Positions 4,475-40,978 of a stretch of 44,225 nucleotides of DNA are shown here, one piece after another. How positions within the stretch are numbered: the stretch's first letter is position 1; every line of letters begins with the position of its first letter. The position numbers were made by a program, and so were the translations under genes. The notes beneath the pieces were generated by a model. The model saw nothing but the letters and a program-made list of their open reading frames with translations, was not told where the DNA came from and did not search any database. Source of the stretch: a virus; the IMG/VR virus record IMGVR_UViG_3300036819_000050, positions 1-44,225 of that record. One strand, 5' to 3'.

Positions 4475-5548
4475 TCAGGAACTAGTGGCCGGCGCTATGA
4501 GCGCCAAGAGGGCAGCGAAGTCGCCACGGGCGCTATTCATGGGGGTCACCTGGGCGGTTCCGGTGTCGTCGGAATAGACCAGCGAGCCAACGACGAAGGA
4601 GATGAGGCCTACCGCCTGCTCGCCCCCGAAGGGGGCATCCGTAACCAAAAGACGCGCGACGGTCCCGGCTCGCTCGCAGCCGAGATCGACCGGCGTTCCG
4701 CCCGTCGTCAGGTACTGGCCGTACCTGATCGTGAACGGGCCCGCGAACGACGCCCGCTGGTAACGCGCCAGCGTGGCCGCGCCGACCGCCTGTGCCGCGC
4801 TTGCGGACATGACTCCCGCGTTGGACAGGTCCGCGTACACCTCGGTCGGCCCGTGCCGGTTGATGTCGCCCTGGTTGAACGAGTCGGTCAGGTTGTAGGT
4901 GTCATTTCCTGATCCGTCATCGCTGGCGGTGTATTTCAGCCACACGGTCGTGATGTCGTTCGCGATGCTGCGCGCCACCGGGGACGTGGCCACCAGCAGG
5001 CGGTTCACCACGGACGGGATAGCGCCGACCTGGAGGCGGTTCCAGCGGTCCACCTGCCACACCTGGCCGGACTTCCCGCACACCATGTTCAGGTGGTCGG
5101 CGACCGTCTGGGAGGCGTTGTCGGGCTGCTGGGACAGCCAGCCCCCGGCGATGCCCGGGTTGATCCAGGGCAGGCCGCGCAGGATCGCCTGATCCACGGG
5201 GTTGTTAAGCGACCAGCTCGTGTAGTAAGCGGCGAACTGTGACGCCATGGTCGCGGCACCGTGTGCCTGGATGGCCCACCCGGACACGGACGGTACCGGC
5301 TCGTTGAGCTGCCCGTACCAGACGACACTTCCGCCGCGGACCACCTTCACGATGCGCCCCGGATTCAGCGCGGGCGAGCGCGCTGAAGGCGGTATCTGGA
5401 GCGTGCAGGACAACTGGTCCGCACCGCCAGGGCAGGTGAACGAGTAAGACAGTCCGGCTACATGCCCCAGCTGGCCGAGCCAGCGCGCGTCAGTGCCATC
5501 GGGAGCGAAAGTGACCACCTGGGAAGCCGAGCGCCGGTCGATGGCCAA
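4475..5548 (-). CDS. Minor tail / baseplate-hub-like protein
   Basis: This is a 357-aa protein resembling the gp37-like minor tail proteins of actinophages (siphovirus ReqiPepy6 type). It opens with a 'GQLGHVAGLSYSFTCPGG' strand region, then a typical hub-like passage (NPGRIVKVVRGGSVVWYGQL) and repeated beta strands. These proteins sit at the tail tip and correspond to the tail-associated hub domain. The family assignment rests on overall pattern and on position after the distal-tail gene. The start is uncertain: a TTG at 5548 lies directly behind GGGGGTGA, which is too close for normal spacing. An in-frame GTG further in lacks a clear ribosome site. A stop codon immediately precedes the TTG. 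Confidence 0.65.
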   Translation of the reverse strand: MAIDRRSASQVVTFAPDGTDARWLGQLGHVAGLSYSFTCPGGADQLSCTLQIPPSARSPALNPGRIVKVVRGGSVVWYGQLNEPVPSVSGWAIQAHGAATMASQFAAYYTSWSLNNPVDQAILRGLPWINPGIAGGWLSQQPDNASQTVADHLNMVCGKSGQVWQVDRWNRLQVGAIPSVVNRLLVATSPVARSIANDITTVWLKYTASDDGSGNDTYNLTDSFNQGDINRHGPTEVYADLSNAGVMSASAAQAVGAATLARYQRASFAGPFTIRYGQYLTTGGTPVDLGCERAGTVARLLVTDAPFGGEQAVGLISFVVGSLVYSDDTGTAQVTPMNSARGDFAALLALIAPATSS

Positions 5549-5592
5549 TCACCCCCGGCGAGATAGCGCGTCATGGCACTGCGGCGGGGCGC

Positions 5593-6039
5593 TCAAGCGA
5601 ACGGCAGGGTGTGGTTGTGGTTCCCGCTCGTCACTGCGTAGCTGCCCGGGCCGTGGACGTGGTGGCCGTCGTTGACGGAGTAGCTGCCGGGCCCGTGGGT
5701 ATGCGCCGAAGCTCCCCCGACCTGAGGGCCGGACGTGCCGCCGACCGTGCCGTTATTCAGCCCGATATTGCCTGAGCTGCCATTGATGGTCCCGTCCGCC
5801 AGCCCGTTGCTGCTGGTGTTCTGCCCGGACAGGGCGGTCCGTGCGTTCTTCAGTGCTGTCGCGGTGTCAGCGGACCGCTTGTCGAGCGTGGAGACCTTCG
5901 CGTTCGTCGCCGCGGCCGTGACCAGCAGGCAGTTGCAGAGCGCCGTCATGAGCTCGAGGAACTGCGCCTCGCGCCTGACCGCTCGCGGGAGGAGCCGGAT
6001 GGCGACGATGATCGCGACGATCGTGATCAGCTTCTTCAT
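5593..6039 (-). CDS. Tail-tip-like protein with C-terminal HxH repeats and N-terminal hydrophobic helix
   Basis: This is a 148-aa protein. Residues 2-17 form a hydrophobic helix (KKLITIVAIIVAIRLL). Residues 18-75 look helical or coiled-coil. Residues 76-108 are an Asn/Gly/Thr/Ser-rich beta stretch. The C-terminus carries two copies of HxHGPGSYxVxxGxH and a final HNH (HTHGPGSY, HVHGPGSY, NHNH). HxH motifs of this kind bind metal along the axis of trimeric phage fibres and spikes, so a metal-stabilised tip is likely. The ribosome site AGGGGGGAC supports the ATG. The hydrophobic N-terminus is unusual for a virion protein and could insert into membrane or pack in a trimer. Confidence 0.65.
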   Translation of the reverse strand: MKKLITIVAIIVAIRLLPRAVRREAQFLELMTALCNCLLVTAAATNAKVSTLDKRSADTATALKNARTALSGQNTSSNGLADGTINGSSGNIGLNNGTVGGTSGPQVGGASAHTHGPGSYSVNDGHHVHGPGSYAVTSGNHNHTLPFA

Positions 6040-6078
6040 GTCCCCCCTCGGGAAATCTGCGCGGCCAGAATGGCCACC

Positions 6079-7908
6079 TCAGGCAAGCCTCTCGACGTAC
6101 CACCTAGGGCTGTAAGTTGCGGCGATGGCGGGCGCTCCGGTCGCGCTGTAGGCCAGCAACTGGCAGTCGTTGCCACCGTCCACGGTCAGCGGGCCGCCGG
6201 AGACGAACGCCGAATCGAGCACCGATACAGCGCGAGTCCGGTCGCTGCTCGAGCCGAGTACCCGGCCGAGGTCGCGATCGGGAGTCGGCTCGTCAATGAA
6301 GTAAGCCGGGTATCCGGACCCGGCTTCGTTGATGATCACGGTCTCGCCGGCCACGTCGAGGAACAGCACGTCCAGGTACTGGTCGGACGTGATCGTGTCG
6401 GTGATGCCGACCGTGAAATACGCGGCCGAGTTACCGGGCGGAATGTCCTTGCCCGGCAGCGTGAGCTCTCCGACGACGAGAAGCCCGTTCGTTATGTCCG
6501 TGCTCGGCACGAAAGTGCGGCTCACCGTCTGCACGCTCGACGGGCCACCGGAGTACTCGAACTGGTAGACGCTGATCGTGACCGTCCTGCTCGAGGACGG
6601 GCTGTTCCACGAGTTCGCGACCGCGACGATCGTGTAGGTGCCGTTGAACCGGGCGTTCTGCCCCGAGATCTGGCTGGTGACGTTGTACTGCCGGCCGTCC
6701 GGCGGATCGGTCACGTTGGCGGTCGACACGAACGGCGTCAGGTTGGTCGGCGAGTCCGGGCCCGGCCGGTGGGCGATCAGCGTCGGGAAGCTCACCCCGC
6801 CGGTCTGGGTGAACTGCAGGTTCAGCGGCGCATGGCTGGTACCCACCACGCCGTGCAGCGTGTACAGGGAACCGCGGACCGACGCCGGGGCCGTGGTGGT
6901 GACCGGCTGCGCGGTGAGGCTGTCGAGGAACGCGTCGGTGTAGTTGAGCTGGTAGCCGCCGTAGTTCGCGATCGTGATGTCGCACTCGACGACGTGCGTG
7001 ATGTCGAACCCGCCGGAGGGCGACGGGATGTTCGCGGAGACCAGGTTCCACTGCGGTGAGCCGTTCGAGCTGGAGACGCTGGTGTACAGGCTGGTGCCGA
7101 ACTGCATGGACCGGCCCGCGTTGTCCCACAGGGTGTAGGTCAGCGTGACCGGCATGGAGCCTGAGCCCCAGTAGTACCAGTAGCTGGGGGAGGCGAACCC
7201 GGCCCAGTGCTGCAGCACGGACAGGCCGGTGAGGTCTTTCGCCGCGAACGTGCTGGCGTAGGTGGGGGCGTTGTTGCGGCTGGACGGCGCCGACCAGTGC
7301 GCCGAGAACGAGCCGGTGATGTGCGCGGACGAGGCGGACCAGTGCGACCCGGAAACCGTCTCGTAGTCGTCCAGGGTGACCGGGGAGTAGGTCTGTGCCG
7401 GGGTGCCGGACACCGGGGAGGCGAACGCGAGCTGCTGCGGCGTGTCGCTGCGGCCGTAGGGGAGCGCCTGGAAGCTGACTGCCACCCGCGAGACCAGGTT
7501 GCGGTCCTGCCGCACCGAGTAGGTGACGACGGACGGCTGCGCGCGGAAGCAGTCGAAGATGAGCGCGTTGCCGCCGTCGCGGGTCCAGGTGAGTGTCCAT
7601 GTCTGCGCGTCGATAAGCGACAGGAGAGTCTCCCGCGCGCCGGTCAGGGTCGCCTGGTCGGCCAGGTTGTTCCCGGTGGGCGGCACCGTGATCACGATCG
7701 GCAGGGTGATGGTGCGGTTGTCGGCACGGCGGCCGAACGGCCGTGAGCCGTCGAGGATGAGCTGGCCGACCAGATCGGTGACGCTCTGAGGCGACGACAG
7801 GTCGTATCCGGGGGCGACCTGAAACTTGGCCCCCCTGCAGGCCGGCAGGACGGACGCGACGCCGCCGCCGAGCAGCTCGATCGCTCCGGCCAGCAGAAGG
7901 GACGCCAC
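6079..7908 (-). CDS. Minor tail protein, distal-tail (Dit)-like
   Basis: This 609-aa protein directly follows the tape measure gene. The first 200 residues have the flow of a distal tail protein: an opening strand-rich part, GRRADNRTITLPIVI, an internal ETLLSLIDAQTWTLTW segment and a 'RVAVSFQALPYG' closing strand, as in Dit domains whose galectin-like parts form the tail-tip ring. The rest (about 210-609) is beta-rich, Ser/Thr/Tyr-rich and contains sugar-binding-like sandwich segments (HWSASSAHITGSFSAHWSAP). It may be a carbohydrate-binding extension for host recognition. GTG start with GGGGGTGG upstream. The Dit role is inferred from order and sequence style. Confidence 0.7.
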   Translation of the reverse strand: MASLLLAGAIELLGGGVASVLPACRGAKFQVAPGYDLSSPQSVTDLVGQLILDGSRPFGRRADNRTITLPIVITVPPTGNNLADQATLTGARETLLSLIDAQTWTLTWTRDGGNALIFDCFRAQPSVVTYSVRQDRNLVSRVAVSFQALPYGRSDTPQQLAFASPVSGTPAQTYSPVTLDDYETVSGSHWSASSAHITGSFSAHWSAPSSRNNAPTYASTFAAKDLTGLSVLQHWAGFASPSYWYYWGSGSMPVTLTYTLWDNAGRSMQFGTSLYTSVSSSNGSPQWNLVSANIPSPSGGFDITHVVECDITIANYGGYQLNYTDAFLDSLTAQPVTTTAPASVRGSLYTLHGVVGTSHAPLNLQFTQTGGVSFPTLIAHRPGPDSPTNLTPFVSTANVTDPPDGRQYNVTSQISGQNARFNGTYTIVAVANSWNSPSSSRTVTISVYQFEYSGGPSSVQTVSRTFVPSTDITNGLLVVGELTLPGKDIPPGNSAAYFTVGITDTITSDQYLDVLFLDVAGETVIINEAGSGYPAYFIDEPTPDRDLGRVLGSSSDRTRAVSVLDSAFVSGGPLTVDGGNDCQLLAYSATGAPAIAATYSPRWYVERLA

Positions 7909-28993: not shown

Positions 28994-29914
28994 TCAGGAC
29001 GATTCGAGTTCGGCGTCGAGGTCCTCGCCGCGGGCCAGGATGGCGGCCTGCCGTTCGGCTTCGATCTCGTACTGGGACAGGGTGAGGATGCGGCCGCAGT
29101 CCGGGTTCTTGCAGTTGACGGTCGTCTCGCCTTCGGTCCAGAACAGCATGACGCACTTGCAGGACGGGCAGCGCATCGGCTTACGGAGGGTGCGTACCCC
29201 GGCTTTGGCCGCGCCGCAGCTTTCCCGGTGCCACTGCAGGACCTCCAGGCCGAAGTCGGCCGCGATACCGGAGACGAGGATCCCGTTGAGGTGACGGCGG
29301 AGCCAGTCGATGCATTCGGTCTCGCGCGCCGCGAGATCGCCGTGGGGCGCCCCGGACTGCCAGCCTTTCAGGGTGCGGTAGATCACCTCCCAGGTGCTGA
29401 GCATCCGGAACATCTCATCCAGGTCATCGCCCGCGCGTGACTGTGATGACGGCTCCGTGGTGCCGGAGACGCGCTCGAGGTCGCCGGGTTCGCGGTAGCC
29501 GTCGGCCTCGGCGGCGAGCCGGCCGGCGAGCGTGTCGAGCTGGGCGAGGCGCAGCCGGATCTTCGTCGTGCAGTCCGTGCACCACACCGGTGAGCCGGGC
29601 CAGAACCGGGCGGCGGGCGGTTCGGGCCGGGACCGGTCGGCGTCGAGGAGGCCGGTCTCGTTGTAGTCGCCGACGTCGGCGGCGTACTTCGCCCATGCTT
29701 CCTGGTAGCGCTTGTTGCACGGGCCGGGGCAGGCGCCGGGGTCGGGTTTCGCCGCCTCGACCTTCTGGCCTTTCGGCGGTGCGGGCCTGGGCTGGGGGAC
29801 TTCCGGTGCGGTGATCAGGACAGGCGGGGTGCCGGATCCGCCGCCGCGGCGGTGCCGGTCGCCGCGGAAGTCGCTGGAGCGGAACGAGTACCCGGGGTCG
29901 AATTTGCCTGCCAC
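28994..29914 (-). CDS. Zinc-ribbon protein (hypothetical)
   Basis: This is a 306-aa protein. The N-terminus is basic and disordered (RHRRGGGSGTPPV). CPGPCNKRYQEAWAKYAADV follows, with a paired WCTDCTTKIRLRLAQLD: together a four-Cys zinc site near residues 60-120. A helical core comes next. The C-terminal third has RCPSCKCVMLFWTEGETTVN followed by CKNPDCG, a second zinc ribbon, and a helix (QYEIEAERQAAILARG). Similar two-ribbon proteins recur in actinophages and conjugative elements without known function. GTG start at 29914 behind AGGGGGA. The last gene before the late promoter; perhaps a nucleic-acid-binding regulator. Confidence 0.7.
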   Translation of the reverse strand: MAGKFDPGYSFRSSDFRGDRHRRGGGSGTPPVLITAPEVPQPRPAPPKGQKVEAAKPDPGACPGPCNKRYQEAWAKYAADVGDYNETGLLDADRSRPEPPAARFWPGSPVWCTDCTTKIRLRLAQLDTLAGRLAAEADGYREPGDLERVSGTTEPSSQSRAGDDLDEMFRMLSTWEVIYRTLKGWQSGAPHGDLAARETECIDWLRRHLNGILVSGIAADFGLEVLQWHRESCGAAKAGVRTLRKPMRCPSCKCVMLFWTEGETTVNCKNPDCGRILTLSQYEIEAERQAAILARGEDLDAELESS

Positions 29915-29992
29915 GTTGTTTCCCCCTGCCGGTGACCATGCGTTGAACACATGATCACCGATAGTCGCAGGTAGCCGCAAATAGCCCAGGCG

Positions 29993-30202
29993 TTACGCGG
30001 CGCGTCGCATCTCCACGGCGTCAGGATCCCGGCGCGGCTCGCGTTCCTGCTCCTGGACGATCGCATTGTCGGGCTCTTCATCGCCTACAGCCAGGCGCAG
30101 CAGTATCAGCGCGGCGGCTACGACACAGGCAAGAGCGATCCACAACAGCACAGAGACGACCGATCGGCGGGAAACGGGCAGGTCACGGGGCCGAGCGGCC
30201 AC
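29993..30202 (-). CDS. Small single-pass membrane protein
   Basis: This protein of about 69 aa begins at GTG 30202. After a short basic lead (RPRDLPVSRRS) comes one transmembrane helix (VVSVLLWIALACVVAAALIL), then a charged tail (EEPDNAIVQEQEREPRRD). The start is chosen because it lies 7 nt after the stop of the displaced gene end at 30210-30302, which would have been the gene before it in the ancestral operon. A longer in-frame version would overlap that remnant. Small membrane proteins like this are common in conjugative regions; no specific role can be named. Confidence 0.6.
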   Translation of the reverse strand: MAARPRDLPVSRRSVVSVLLWIALACVVAAALILLRLAVGDEEPDNAIVQEQEREPRRDPDAVEMRRAA

Positions 30203-30209
30203 GCCGAGC

Positions 30210-30302
30210 CTACCGGTGCTGACGGGACTCCCGGGACTCCCGGGACTCGCCGTCCGGTGGCAGCAGCGAGCGGAGGAACTGCTCGGCACGCTGGTCCCAG
30301 CC
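30210..30302 (-). pseudogene. Displaced C-terminal end of the zinc-binding gene at 31397-31921
   Basis: The frame reads GWDQRAEQFLRSLLPPDGES and so on to a TAG at 30210-30212, and has no start. The zinc-binding protein across the nuclease gene ends with AWERRVESFLRALLDRTPER. The W-[ED]-[RQ]-R-[VA]-E-[SQ]-FLR-[AS]-LL part is clearly the same sequence. So a second copy of that protein's end lies just after the stop of the GIY-YIG gene. The simplest explanation is insertion of the nuclease gene with its own replacement end. The ESRESRESR repeat comes from a tandem 9-bp DNA repeat (30224-30250). Confidence 0.7.
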
Positions 30303-30316
30303 GTGAAGCGGGCGCC

Positions 30317-31384
30317 TTACGCGGCGACGGCAGATTCGCCGATCGCGTGATCAGCCACATCGAGCACGAGAGCCAGGGCTGAACTGTCGTAATACTCTCG
30401 GCCCTTGATCGGCCGTTCGCCCGCAAGGCGCAGCGCAGCCAGCACCGACCGCTCAAGATCCGGGGCCGCGGTGCCTGGCAGTCCGGTCAGCAGTTTGACT
30501 ACCTCGCGGTAACCAGCTGACCGATGGACGCCGAGCCTCGGTCGAGGATCACCTGATGTGATGCCGAACTTGAGCCGGTGCCGGTCAGTATCAAGCACAA
30601 TGTAGAAAACGTCCCAGATCATGCCGGCACACAGACGGCAGACGCCGCTACCCCCTCGAATGTGCCTCGGGGCCGGATAACATTCATGCCCGGCAGCGCA
30701 GCGGACACGGTGCGGAGTCGTGACATTTTGGTATGGCTCTAGCAAGGTTGCGCCGAGTTCGGCCAGCCGGGCACGAAACGCGGTTTCAGCCGTGGCCGGG
30801 TCGTTACCAGCACATGCACGACAGATGCCTATTCCAGCCTTGACATGATCCGGCCGGGGCCTGCATTCATGTCCGGCCACACACCGAACCCGGTGCGGCT
30901 TGGCTGCTCCGAGCCAGACTGGCTCTAGCAGGGCTGCCCCCAGTTCCGCGAGCCTGACGTGGAACCGCGCCTCGGCTGTAGCCGGGTCGCGCCTAGCGCA
31001 TGCCCGGCAGATCCCTTGACCTATTTGGGCATAACCCGGGCGAGCCATGCATTGATGCCCCGCTGCACAGCGAACCCGATGCGGCTTATGGCTCCCGAGC
31101 CAGCCTGGTTCAAGCAGCGTCGCGCCCAGTTCGGTCAGTCTGGCTCGAAACGCGACCTCTGCCCTTGCTGGATCATTGTGAGGGGTGCATGTACGGCAGA
31201 TGCAGCGACCTTGCTGAACGGCGTTCGGCCTAGGTTGGCACTCATGTCCGGCGGAACATCGGACCCGATGAGGCCTGTAGGCTCCGAGCCATGCAGGCTC
31301 GAGCAGGGTCGCGCCTAGCTCGTCTAGCCGAGCCCGGAATGCTGCCGCGGCTGCGACTGAACGAGAAGTCCTAGCGCCGTTCAT
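30317..31384 (-). CDS. GIY-YIG nuclease with four zinc-finger-like repeats (homing type)
   Basis: This is a 355-aa protein. Residues 15-77, 78-139, 140-201 and 202-254 are four repeats of about 62 aa: helix FRARLAELGATLLEP, then PHRVRCAAGHEC, and CRAC, giving CX5C...CX2C zinc sites. Residues 255-355 are GIY-YIG-like: VFYIVLDTD, LKFGITSGDPRPRLGVHRSA with the FYI/FGI pair and catalytic-type Arg, and DLERSVLAAL with the Glu. The repeats should read DNA, the end should cut it. Lower GC than neighbours and many repeats suggest separate origin. It lies between a gene and that gene's displaced end, as expected of a self-inserting homing gene. Confidence 0.82.
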   Translation of the reverse strand: MNGARTSRSVAAAAAFRARLDELGATLLEPAWLGAYRPHRVRCSAGHECQPRPNAVQQGRCICRTCTPHNDPARAEVAFRARLTELGATLLEPGWLGSHKPHRVRCAAGHQCMARPGYAQIGQGICRACARRDPATAEARFHVRLAELGAALLEPVWLGAAKPHRVRCVAGHECRPRPDHVKAGIGICRACAGNDPATAETAFRARLAELGATLLEPYQNVTTPHRVRCAAGHECYPAPRHIRGGSGVCRLCAGMIWDVFYIVLDTDRHRLKFGITSGDPRPRLGVHRSAGYREVVKLLTGLPGTAAPDLERSVLAALRLAGERPIKGREYYDSSALALVLDVADHAIGESAVAA

Positions 31385-31396
31385 GACCAGGTCAAC

Positions 31397-31921
31397 CTAG
31401 CCCGCTGGTCTGTCATTTTCGACAGGCTCGCGTTCGGGCGTGCGGTCTAGTAGTGCCCGCAGGAACGATTCGACTCGGCGTTCCCAGGCCCCCCAGGTCT
31501 CGTTGCCGCCCGGTGCCCGCTGCCCGTTCATGCGGAGGAACAGGGCAGCCTCGAGCAGCTTGAGGGCCTGGCCGCGCTCGGACCGCTGCACCGGCGACAT
31601 GGGCCGCGTGGCGAGCTCCCACCACACCGCACGCAGGGATTCCTCGGTGGGCAGCTCGCCGGTGACCTGCTTGTGACCGGTTGTGCACCTGCAGCCGCCG
31701 TTGGCCGCGCTCATGATCAGCGCCTGGAACCTGTGCAGCTCTCGGGAGTCTGCGCCGCAGCCCTGGCACCGGCCGGACAGCGCGCCGTCGTAATCCGGAT
31801 CCGTCGTCGGCGCGTACCCGGCGCACGGAGCGCACAGCAGCGCGTAGACGATCGGTGACCGGCCGCCCCGGGCGTAGGTGCCGGGCGGCACGACGCCGCG
31901 CTGGTAGATGGCCTCAGCCAT
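31397..31921 (-). CDS. Zinc-binding protein with replaced C-terminus (hypothetical)
   Basis: This 174-aa protein has LLCAPCAGYAP and GRCQGCGADS as one zinc site, then GGCRCTTGHKQVTGELPTEE and a helical second half. It ends AWERRVESFLRALLDRTPER plus a short polar tail. The final 35 codons use CTA, CTA, AGA-type rare codons and are AT-richer than the rest, fitting the view that they were brought by the GIY-YIG gene. The original end remains at 30210-30302. ATG at 31921 overlaps the stop of the gene before by 8 nt; a TTG at 31942 is a possible longer start. Function unknown. Confidence 0.68.
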   Translation of the reverse strand: MAEAIYQRGVVPPGTYARGGRSPIVYALLCAPCAGYAPTTDPDYDGALSGRCQGCGADSRELHRFQALIMSAANGGCRCTTGHKQVTGELPTEESLRAVWWELATRPMSPVQRSERGQALKLLEAALFLRMNGQRAPGGNETWGAWERRVESFLRALLDRTPEREPVENDRPAG

Positions 31922-32192
31922 CCCGGTCGCCGTCTTCGTCAAGTTCGCGCGGCGGTTCCGCAGGGGCCCAGCCGAGGATGCCTGTCCGGACGATCTCTAG
32001 TGCCTCCCGCATTTTCCGCTCAGCCTCGCCTGCTGCGGCATCGGCCTCGCGAACGACCTTCCACCGCTCGTCCGGGATCGTGACCTCAAGATCGGGTAGC
32101 GGGGCGGCGAACTGCATCAGGCAGTCGCGAGCACCCAGGATGGACATGCAAGCCCGTTCGTAGGCATCCTCGGCGTCTTCGGCGCTAGCCAT
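31914..32192 (-). CDS. Hypothetical helical protein (92 aa)
   Basis: This acidic and helical protein (SAEDAEDAYERACMSILGAR, VREADAAAGEAERKMREALE) ends in a short acidic tail. It is coupled by an 8-nt overlap to the gene before it and to the one after. It contains one TIPDERW-type turn but no recognised domain. It forms part of a run of four small genes between the DUF2637 protein and the zinc-binding protein, likely one transcript. Confidence 0.6.
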   Translation of the reverse strand: MASAEDAEDAYERACMSILGARDCLMQFAAPLPDLEVTIPDERWKVVREADAAAGEAERKMREALEIVRTGILGWAPAEPPRELDEDGDRDG

Positions 32193-38118: not shown

Positions 38119-38790
38119 CTAGCTGCGGGTACGGGCGGTGCGGGCCGGGGCCGGCCGGGTGCTGCCAGGGGCGAGGCGCCCCCCGGGCGCTGGCGCAGTC
38201 CTCGCCGGGGCGGGTGCGGGCCGTGGCTGGCGTTGCCGCCTGACCCGGGTCACGACCGAACCGGGCACGTCGCGGCGGGCGTTCTGGCGTCCCCACCTGC
38301 GGCCGGCGCGGGTGGCGCTGAACTGCCGTTCCCGGCTGCCCGGCTGCCGTACGGACTGCCAGGTGCGCCCGGTGGCGCGCCAGGTCCTGCGGGACCGGAT
38401 AGCCCGGCCGACGGCGCGCTTCCCGCGTACGAGTGGTCGCGCGGCCCGGGTGAGGCGGCGCCTGGCCTTGTGCATCCGGCCGGCCAGGAAGCGCCTGCCG
38501 TTCTCCATCTCGGTGACGAGTTCCTTGACGAGCCGCCGCTGGATGACCCACACCTTGGCCCGGCCCAGCTGGGTCAGCAGCTTCTTGGCCCGCCGTGTCA
38601 GCGGCCGCCAGTGGCCGAGCCTGGCGGCAGCCGGCTCAGCGGTTCTGGCGGCGCGGCCGAACCGGCGGCGGTGGATCTCGTTGTTCAGCTCGTGCACGGT
38701 GACCTGCTGGACGGATGCGTGCTTGGTGCGCTTCAGGCGGCGCATCAGGTGCCTTGCCCGGCGGCTCAGGCGACGGTAGTCGAATGCCAT
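38119..38790 (-). CDS. Arg-rich basic protein, possible DNA-binding
   Basis: This 223-aa protein begins AFDYRRLSRRARHLMRRLKR and remains very basic throughout (LTRRAKKLLTQLGRAKVWVI, RRLVKELVTEMENGRRFLAG, ARRRLTRAARPLVRGKRAVG). The last 60 residues are Pro/Arg/Ala repeats. The core looks helical and similar to phage and plasmid proteins that bind DNA or RNA non-specifically. It starts inside the end of the coupling ATPase gene (25-nt overlap). The ATG follows an AGGAGGAACCCG site. Long open frames in this interval in other phases are GC-driven and not supported. Function unknown. Confidence 0.62.
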   Translation of the reverse strand: MAFDYRRLSRRARHLMRRLKRTKHASVQQVTVHELNNEIHRRRFGRAARTAEPAAARLGHWRPLTRRAKKLLTQLGRAKVWVIQRRLVKELVTEMENGRRFLAGRMHKARRRLTRAARPLVRGKRAVGRAIRSRRTWRATGRTWQSVRQPGSRERQFSATRAGRRWGRQNARRDVPGSVVTRVRRQRQPRPAPAPARTAPAPGGRLAPGSTRPAPARTARTRS

Positions 38791-40628
38791 GCGGGTTCCT
38801 CCTCGGTGATGGCGGGCGGGTAACTGGGGACCGCATACGCGCCGGACGGGCTGTCCAGGGCGGGCGCGGGCTCGCGGCGGCCGATCCCCGCTGGGGCGGC
38901 CGGCGGCATGGGGATCGCGTCGCGGCGCGGCGCCGCGATCGCGGCGCGCTCCGGGGCGGCGTCGCGGGCCGGGACGTTGCCGGCTGCGACGTCGGCGCGC
39001 TGGTAGCCGCGCCGGTCCCACACGTGGGTGACCTTCGCGATGACCGGCCTTGTGGTGCGGTGCAGGATCAGGACCTCGCCGGGGGCGAGCTTGCGGATCC
39101 GCTCCGGCGGGACCGTGCGTTCCTGCCGCGGGGTTTTCGTCTTGGACCCGTCGGGGTTGCGGGTGTGGTCCCAGGTGTCCCGCATGCCGCAGACGGCGGA
39201 GATCTCCTCCAGGTCGGCGGCGTCGGTGTCGCCGCCCCAGAACAGCTTGATCGTGGACAGCTTCTTGATGGTGCGGCCGTCGTGGTCACCCCAGCGGGAC
39301 AGCAGCTGGGAGATGCCCTGGACCGCGGCCATGACCGTGACGCCGTGACCGCCGGCTTCGGCCAGCCATTTGTGCAGCGGGACGGGGCAGGTGATCGCGG
39401 CCTCGTCGAGGGCCAGGGTCAGCGGCGCGGGGAGCCGTCCGCCGGGGGAGCGGGACGCGACCCGCTTGGCGGTCTCGAACAGGTGCGCGGCGAAGCTGGC
39501 GAAGTAGGGGGCGAGGGCGCCGTGGGGCCGGTCAGCGCCGATCAGGTACACGGTGCCGTGCCCGCACAGCAGGAACGTCTCCGCGTCGAAGCCGTCGCCC
39601 GGCCGGGGGCAGGCGGCTTCGGCCATCGCCGGGTCGTCCATCCACCCCAGCGCCGCGGCGGCCGACGCGATGATCCCGTTGAGCTGCTCATCGGTCCCGG
39701 CCAGCGCGGCGAGCTTGTGGGCCCAGCCGGGTGCGGCGTACTCGCTGGCCAGGATCGCCGCCGGCGCCGGGTGGGCGGGGTCGGCGATCCAGGCGCGGAC
39801 CTGCTGCATGTCCGCCCCGGCGATCGCGGCGGCGTGAAGCATCAGGCGGAGCAGCTCGGCGCCCTTGGCGTCCCACCAGGCGTCCTTGCCGGACTTGTCG
39901 CGCGGGGCGGCGTCCATCAGGTACCCGGCCCGCTGGATCGCGGTGGCGGGATCGTCGCAGCCGTCCACGGGGGACCATCGCAGGGTCGAGGGGATGTCGC
40001 CGTCGCCGTCCGGGTTCAGCACCCAGACCTCGGCGCCGCGGCGCGCGGCCGCGGTGTGGGCGTACATGTCGGTCCTGGTCGAGGTGGTCAGGACCGATCC
40101 GGGGGCGTCCGCGACCCAGCAGGCCATCAGCCCGGTCTTGCCCGAGCGCGGCCCGGCGACGAGCAGGTAGGAATCCTCGCGGCTCCCGGCGAGGTCCTGG
40201 CCGCGGGCCCGGCCGAGCGTGACCGGCACCCGGGACGGGTCGGTGCCGGGGCAGGTGACCGCGGCACGCCTGGCGACCGAGTTGGGGGACAGGTTCGCGC
40301 GGAGTTCCTTCCGCGTGGCCAGGCCCTGGTAGCGGCGGCGGGCCCGCATCGCGGCTTTCCCGCCGGAGCGGTGCCAGCCGAACGCCTCGTGCATCCGCAC
40401 GCCGGCGACTCCGGCGGCGGCGCTGAGCCCGGCGACGGCGATGTCGGGCTGGCGCAGGATCGCGGCCGCGGCCGCCGCGGCGGCGAGGCTCGCTACGTAG
40501 GGGGCGCCCTCGCGCATGGTGCGGGTCGCCTTGCGGTCGGCCGCGCGCCGGATCCGGCCGGGAGGCTTGCGGACCCGGCGCTGCGGCTCGGCCGCGGCCG
40601 GTGCCTTCGGCCTGGTGATGATGGTCAT
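38766..40628 (-). CDS. VirD4/TraG-type coupling ATPase
   Basis: This is a 620-aa protein. Two hydrophobic segments lie near residues 41-80 (APYVASLAAAAAAAAILRQP). The motor has Walker A YLLVAGPRSGKTGLM (about 155-169) and Walker B APLTLALDEAAITC (about 410). WGDHDGRTIKKLSTIKLFWG and DLEEISAVCGMRDTWDHTRN are typical of the TraM-recognition end of T4SS coupling proteins. In conjugation these dock the DNA-relaxase complex at the membrane. No relaxase or VirB-like channel gene is in the window. ATG behind GGGAGGTCGCG; its start overlaps the stop of the gene before in ATGA. With the FtsK-like pump this makes two conjugation-type motors in one operon. Confidence 0.87.
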   Translation of the reverse strand: MTIITRPKAPAAAEPQRRVRKPPGRIRRAADRKATRTMREGAPYVASLAAAAAAAAILRQPDIAVAGLSAAAGVAGVRMHEAFGWHRSGGKAAMRARRRYQGLATRKELRANLSPNSVARRAAVTCPGTDPSRVPVTLGRARGQDLAGSREDSYLLVAGPRSGKTGLMACWVADAPGSVLTTSTRTDMYAHTAAARRGAEVWVLNPDGDGDIPSTLRWSPVDGCDDPATAIQRAGYLMDAAPRDKSGKDAWWDAKGAELLRLMLHAAAIAGADMQQVRAWIADPAHPAPAAILASEYAAPGWAHKLAALAGTDEQLNGIIASAAAALGWMDDPAMAEAACPRPGDGFDAETFLLCGHGTVYLIGADRPHGALAPYFASFAAHLFETAKRVASRSPGGRLPAPLTLALDEAAITCPVPLHKWLAEAGGHGVTVMAAVQGISQLLSRWGDHDGRTIKKLSTIKLFWGGDTDAADLEEISAVCGMRDTWDHTRNPDGSKTKTPRQERTVPPERIRKLAPGEVLILHRTTRPVIAKVTHVWDRRGYQRADVAAGNVPARDAAPERAAIAAPRRDAIPMPPAAPAGIGRREPAPALDSPSGAYAVPSYPPAITEEEPAWHSTTVA

Positions 40629-40978
40629 CGCGACCTCCCTCGGGTGCGGGTCTGCCGCTCCTGCGGCGGGTGAGCAAGCCTCCGGTGGTCCCGGGCATCC
40701 TCGATGGTGTTCAGGAAGCTTCCGTACGGGCCGGCGAACCGGCGGCAGCCCGTTTCGCGACACCGCCAGAACTCGCCGCCGTCGGTGCTGGCGGTGTCCA
40801 GCGCCCGGTCAGCCTTAGCCCATGCGCCGGCTGGCAGGCGTGGCGCGCGGCCCTGCTGGACCGGGACGTTCTCCCGGATCTGGCCGGGCGTCCACCGGGC
40901 TGCCCGGTCCTCCCAGCGGCCTGGGTCGTCGTCCGGACGCGGCCAGCCGTACGCGTCCCGGTCTTCGCTGCCGCTCAT
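40625..40978 (-). CDS. Hypothetical protein with Cys pair (117 aa)
   Basis: This protein begins GSEDRDAYGWPRPDDDPGRW and contains EFWRCRETGCRRFAGPYGSF, a CX4C pair like half a zinc finger, then a basic end (DHRRLAHPPQERQTRTRGRS). The YGWP..DDPGRW..RA..W style occurs in small actinobacterial plasmid and phage proteins. ATG at 40978 follows GGGAGG, and both ends are 4-nt overlaps with neighbours, so it is coupled to the coupling ATPase gene. Confidence 0.65.
   Translation of the reverse strand: MSGSEDRDAYGWPRPDDDPGRWEDRAARWTPGQIRENVPVQQGRAPRLPAGAWAKADRALDTASTDGGEFWRCRETGCRRFAGPYGSFLNTIEDARDHRRLAHPPQERQTRTRGRSR

Follow-up and report, generated by a model that had tools for sequence, protein, structure and literature searches.

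The window, as we call the whole stretch of DNA analysed, is an entire linear IMG/VR record of 44,225 bp with a GC content of about 70%, from a virus of a soil bacterium. Its phage genes include those of a Mu-type portal, a major head protein, and a tape measure protein, and alongside these in the same record is a conjugation-type coupling protein gene. This TraG/TraD-type gene (window 38766-40763, minus strand; PF12696, 1.5e-18) is not obviously an assembly error, because it is also present in the sister record of L014. The latter is the closest record found, with 80-90% DNA identity over much of the element and other genes at the positions of X, G, and M (see below), while the 9.5 kb around the X-G locus gave no matches among named phages. 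Read along the minus strand, the locus comprises gene X (31942 or 31921 to 31397), nuclease gene G (31384-30317), a startless reading frame that extends to 30210, the small membrane gene M, and gene U. A sequence-only reading of this DNA had placed X, G, M, and the frame without a start at these positions, and this was borne out by the open reading frames, including the stop of the startless frame 7 nt before M.

Gene X (31397-31942, minus strand) begins with either a TTG at 31942 or an ATG at 31921. Based on the reading frame, the module alignment, and a GC3 of 0.91, its body extends up to the conserved NETW codons (31493..31942, minus strand), and contains a zinc-ribbon-like N-terminus and the start of what we call the APGGNETW module. 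The C-terminus reads ...APGGNETW-GAWERRVESFLRALLDRTPEREPVENDRPAG followed by a stop, with the present tail (31397..31492, minus strand), which begins GAWERRVESFLRALLDRTPERE, having a GC3 of 0.61, fitting the module HMM, and probably being imported together with G. As a whole, the module with which X ends (31397-31600, minus strand) is a conserved one of 43 residues (LLEYALHLRxxGExAPGGxETWxxFDRxAExFLR) that we found in 17 other viral records, where it occurs once per record and uninterrupted in all 17. Elsewhere, the module usually lies near the C-terminus of otherwise unrelated proteins with differing N-termini, in records resembling soil actinophages. No relative of G is carried by any of the 15 module records tested. 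X itself has no Pfam match, neither X nor the module was matched in the named phages, plasmids, and GTDB genomes searched, and two scans of genome contigs returned unrelated proteins only.

Twelve nucleotides (31385..31396, minus strand) separate the TAG stop of X from the ATG start of G, which lies in the frame of X. G (30317..31384, minus strand) encodes a 355-residue protein whose best PHROG is 681 (endonuclease, 3.9e-16), and whose four CxxGH...CxxC repeats resemble zinc fingers. An alignment-based scan with G revealed 31 viral loci at 34-60% identity, and the residues invariant across 24 members include Tyr261, Lys272-x-Gly274, Arg283, His287, Glu311, and Glu330. Modelled with AlphaFold2 (pLDDT 93.6), the catalytic domain matches models of T5orf172, CapR-homology, and ICP1 ORF88 proteins in a viral library (Foldseek probability 1.00, TM about 0.7), and a Foldseek search of the PDB with the full-length and domain models gave no match. 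In Pfam, G falls below the T5orf172 threshold, with two of 24 relatives matching this family (best 2.8e-4), three relatives matching MUG113, and one each weakly matching CapR and DUF4379. On its core residues and modelled fold, G is assigned to the T5orf172-type GIY-YIG nucleases. Its named relatives are gp30 of phiSAJS1 (34%) and, at weaker similarity, T5-like phage nucleases, of which some are annotated as GIY-YIG or homing endonucleases. Relatives with identities of up to 60% occur in a variety of phage contexts, as is expected of a mobile gene, and G is probably a selfish DNA-cutting gene. Relatives on Streptomyces plasmids are 64% identical, and no upstream same-strand host gene is within reach of these. 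In T5-like phages (L044 and L047, 2962-5638), there is a 14-nt overlap between a related nuclease gene and the beginning of a gene for class III ribonucleotide reductase.

Past the stop of G and an 11-nt gap (30306..30316, minus strand), which on the right change point described below is the right edge of the insert, there is a frame (30210..30305, minus strand) that lacks a start and is still open. It reads LHGWDQRAEQFLRSLLPPDGESRESRESRQHR, or (L)HGWDQRAEQFLRSLLPPDGESRESRESRQHR, up to its stop, with homology to the end of X beginning at HGWDQRAEQFLRSLL directly after G. The first homologous codon is a CAC at 30305, the stop is at 30212-30210, and the GTG start of M (29993..30202, minus strand) is at 30202. 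M had no Pfam matches and no convincing PHROG match. Next comes U (28994..29980, minus strand), a DNA-binding protein by PHROG that serves as a syntenic anchor to L014 (73%) and L001 (51%). In L001, a distant relative, the order is a module gene, a Phd-like reading frame, an HNH homing-type nuclease gene, and a homologue of U (4977-6932); here, with a different nuclease in the same neighbourhood, we looked for a remnant and none was detectable.

The sequence-only reading had regarded the end of X and the frame after G as homologous, and the module family substantiates this. Compared pairwise, the two tails are only modestly alike (28/51 nt identical), and their score against random windows of related phages (p 0.004) would not by itself settle the matter; it is the family profile that secures the homology. 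For the stretch that follows ETW, a profile of 12 residues was derived from 15 relatives, X being left out. On this profile, the remnant reached 24.6 bits, the own tail of X 23.4 bits, and the next best candidate 15.5 bits, making the remnant the best of the 72,760 twelve-mers in the six frames of the window. None of 1,106,923 null twelve-mers from other loci attained the score of the remnant, and the chance expectation of such a score in the 120 nt after G is about 1e-4. Moreover, the module HMM, which includes X, matches the record at exactly two places, these being X (6.5e-24) and the remnant (1.1e-3), the latter at profile positions 28-42, i.e., the part after NETW. Thus, rather than vanishing in a family alignment, the similarity of the remnant grows stronger. 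Joining the X body in silico to the remnant gave a gapless match of 70.1 bits to the module HMM, compared with 66.8 bits for X as it is and 43.5 bits for the body alone, and so the remnant suits the family slightly better than does the present tail. It had been expected that uninterrupted relatives would continue into remnant-like sequence, and these do run from ETW or ENW straight into it. One of them (L016) reads AACTGG-CACGGCTGGGA, the latter matching the opening 11 nt of the remnant (CAC onward) exactly, with 32/42 nt identical overall.

As to which of the two tails is foreign, base composition is informative. The GC3 values are 0.91 (X body), 0.61 (X tail), 0.62 (G), 0.88 (remnant), and 0.87 (U), and so the X tail is indeed AT-richer, as had been claimed. 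By Fisher's test, the X tail differs from the X body (p 1.4e-4) and does not differ from G (p 1.0), whereas the remnant resembles the body. We also scanned for change points with a two-change-point model that uses GC3 alone and is blind to homology, for which the log-likelihood gain was 29.8. The left break falls at X codons 141-148 (Thr141-Arg148), with NETW being codons 139-142, and the right break, within 2 lnL, falls somewhere from late G to about the tenth remnant codon. Among 13 uninterrupted relatives, the change in GC3 from body to tail is not significant in 12, the exception (L005) being a rise. Where the two tails of X share a residue with synonymous codons, different codons are used in six of seven cases. 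Since the X tail and G form a foreign segment in the GC3 scan, the new tail of X most likely came in with G, and the old tail was most likely displaced. The old divergence of the tails, taken together with an undecayed remnant, fits the recent import of a tail that had diverged elsewhere. Neither a donor with the new tail nor an empty sister allele was found, and L014 has no X at this place.

In a survey of G-family loci, we compared the tail of the upstream gene with the 160-200 nt after each nuclease gene, using predicted genes and random-window nulls; a tblastx and stop-to-stop ORF comparison of the flanks at 31 loci had produced GC-rich noise and was replaced by predicted genes. Among real genes, the survey singled out the window and a prophage contig (L056), in which a DUF6907 gene (PF21848, 2.8e-21) is followed by a G-family nuclease gene and then by a stranded DUF6907 tail. 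Here, the C-terminus of the DUF6907 protein is ...FADQLVAHAAQLRALAASITD and a stop, and the startless frame LVAHAAVIRSLAERLSA, likewise closed by a stop, lies two nucleotides after the stop (TAG) of the nuclease gene. The DUF6907 body on its own scores 57.3 bits, rising to 77.4 bits with the present tail (+20.1) and to 76.1 bits with the remnant (+18.8). Both tails stop after 17 codons, and seven of their nine shared residues have different codons, while the parts in this contig are not separated by composition. The footprint was absent from about 18 other non-redundant G-family loci, in which the nuclease genes lie between genes. As it occurs in only two of about 20 non-redundant loci, tail replacement is not the rule in the family; it is one of several ways in which G-family genes sit in phage genomes.

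Several other candidates were rejected. L048/L052 had been considered as a second case; 51 relatives show that the upstream gene has its native tail, and a cassette hot spot adjoins the conserved frame downstream. L058 and L063 (p 0.003) gave a signal only in spurious antisense frames. In actinophage contigs (L082-L132), a cassette hot spot follows a constant 127-residue gene and its constant downstream linker; a variable gene (HNH, GIY-YIG, or unrelated) comes next, and then a constant startless frame, (G)LATVTVLYPVDCPITTRVQLLADALAA with a stop. In L059 (3812-5587), a G-family nuclease gene lies directly 5' of a gene for DUF6907, the host family in L056, which suggests that some G-family members land repeatedly at DUF6907 genes.

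The reading that we favour, with a probability of about 0.7, is that of a two-part homing element made up of a recoded X tail and G, which would repair the gene that it cuts. The sequence-only reading had likewise seen a homing gene with a recoded end of X and the old end left behind, and it gains support from the module family, the composition, and the prophage contig. The element would be the 1187-nt block at 31492-30306, in which G is preceded by the final 31 codons of X in a differently coded version. We infer that G binds and cuts uninterrupted X-type genes near the conserved ...GGNETW|xxWD... codons, whereupon repair from a G-bearing phage would join the 5' part of the recipient X to the donor tail and insert G, thereby moving the element and stranding the recipient's own tail downstream of G. 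X would remain full length after the repair, and it should escape re-cutting because the repair would have changed the DNA on the right-hand side of the cut. Both the empty site and the immune site predicted by this model can be read from the sequence, the former as the X body joined to the remnant (GGCGGCAACGAGACCTGG followed by CACGGCTGGGACCAGCGTGCCGAGCAGTTCCTC, also written GGCGGCAACGAGACCTGGCACGGCTGGGACCAG) and the latter as the present site in X (GGCGGCAACGAGACCTGG followed by GGGGCCTGGGAACGCCGAGTCGAATCGTTC).

The main rival, though an unlikely one in our estimation, is mosaic recombination, by which a block of X tail and G was acquired from another phage with G as a passenger that cut nothing. 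The same anatomy would result from a single crossover within the conserved module plus an illegitimate join, and the DNA at the left join, with 13-17 of 18 nt common to X and the module relatives, is conserved enough for recombination. Phage genomes are mosaic, too, and most G-family loci are without tail replacement. Against this, the same footprint accompanies two G-family nucleases at two host genes, with the remnant within 11 nt of the nuclease stop, and the core motif of G is intact. Considerably less probable is that the record once had two X-module genes, or a duplicated end of X, and that G replaced the front of the second, in which case the X tail would be native. The presence of two tails that are homologous at the protein level suits this explanation, but the module is single-copy in all 17 other records, the GC3 of the X tail departs from that of the body and equals that of G while that of the remnant equals the body, and no such drop in GC3 is seen in the uninterrupted relatives. 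We consider it very improbable that X contains a group I intron or an intein that harbours G and whose removal joins NETW to HGWDQ; while the joined flanks restore a perfect module, the window has no Rfam matches at the gathering threshold, and X already runs to a stop of its own through a full homologous tail, ahead of the start that G itself provides. Lastly, a chance likeness of the tails in GC-rich sequence, for which the only moderately unlikely pairwise comparison might speak, is refuted by the family profile, with none of the 1.1 million null twelve-mers matching the remnant's score, and by a gapless fit in a frame that is unbroken to its stop.

If the two-part homing element is accepted, it brings along a patch for repairing the gene that it cuts, and such an element can reside within essential coding sequence with no need of an intron or intein. 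It would follow that the same solution arose more than once, and on an unrelated nuclease, and that there is a route by which the ends of phage genes become chimeric. At about even odds, we further propose that tail-swapping is a recurrent mode of movement of T5orf172-type zinc-repeat GIY-YIG nucleases, independent members of which have entered phage genes unrelated to each other (APGGNETW-module and DUF6907) at the 3' end, with recoded ends that keep the genes working and should give immunity to re-cutting. In the papers that we searched, a limited set with most subscription journals outside its scope, this anatomy is described for fungi only, and none reports it for phages or bacteria.

Among known systems, stand-alone phage homing nucleases are usually described beside their target and spread by co-conversion. 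Some prophages, e.g., e14 in icd, insert themselves at the 3' end of a gene and rebuild it, with the old end remaining as a fragment. Like these, the incoming element here supplies a new 3' end while the old one remains, but e14-type elements involve an integrase, att sites, and tens of kilobases, whereas the 1187-nt insert holds only a tail and a nuclease gene, with no integrase and with two tails that share only 28/51 nt. Homing nucleases of the T5orf172 class carry repeated zinc fingers like those of CapR, DUF723, and DUF4379 (PMC10448857), an architecture to which G corresponds. These and the T4 seg/mob genes (PMC2988022) are, like G, stand-alone phage nuclease genes, though the parts of these two papers that we consulted describe insertion beside genes with co-conversion of the flanks, and not a carried host end or a displaced remnant.

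Closer in anatomy are the mitochondrial mORFs of Glomus (atp6, atp9, cox2, and nad3) and Allomyces (atp6), in which the native and inserted ends are more diverged in DNA than in protein (PMC3630166). There, too, the host gene continues in frame into a foreign C-terminus, after which come a nuclease ORF and the native C-terminus, and the atp9 nuclease is a GIY-YIG one. The mORFs differ in belonging to fungal mitochondria and in being mostly of the LAGLIDADG type, with the zinc-repeat T5orf172-type architecture not described in that work (PMC3630166). In the WHO elements at FBA1 of Torulaspora and Lachancea yeasts, for which the model of such an element was developed, the WHO gene and an upstream FBA1 3' region that confers resistance act as a functional unit, the old 3' end is left downstream, and both cutting and allele-specific resistance have been shown (PMC7282813). 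As in WHO and mORF loci, G lies directly 3' of an otherwise complete host gene (12 nt away), a foreign host 3' end appears from GC3, the change points, and codon usage to have travelled with it, and a fragment of the old 3' end comes directly after the nuclease gene, both in the window and in the prophage contig. The chimeric host gene is a further likeness to WHO elements, as are the zinc fingers of the WHO nuclease, which have their counterpart in the zinc-finger-like repeats of G. On the other hand, WHO elements form clusters with several remnants, whereas we see a single unit, and their cutting and resistance have been demonstrated, whereas those of the present element are predicted. The WHO nucleases are also LAGLIDADG or intein-like enzymes of eukaryotes, to which the phage-borne GIY-YIG architecture of G, as judged from its sequence, is unrelated. 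By the descent of its predicted nuclease, then, G is not a WHO element, but by its anatomy it is WHO-like.
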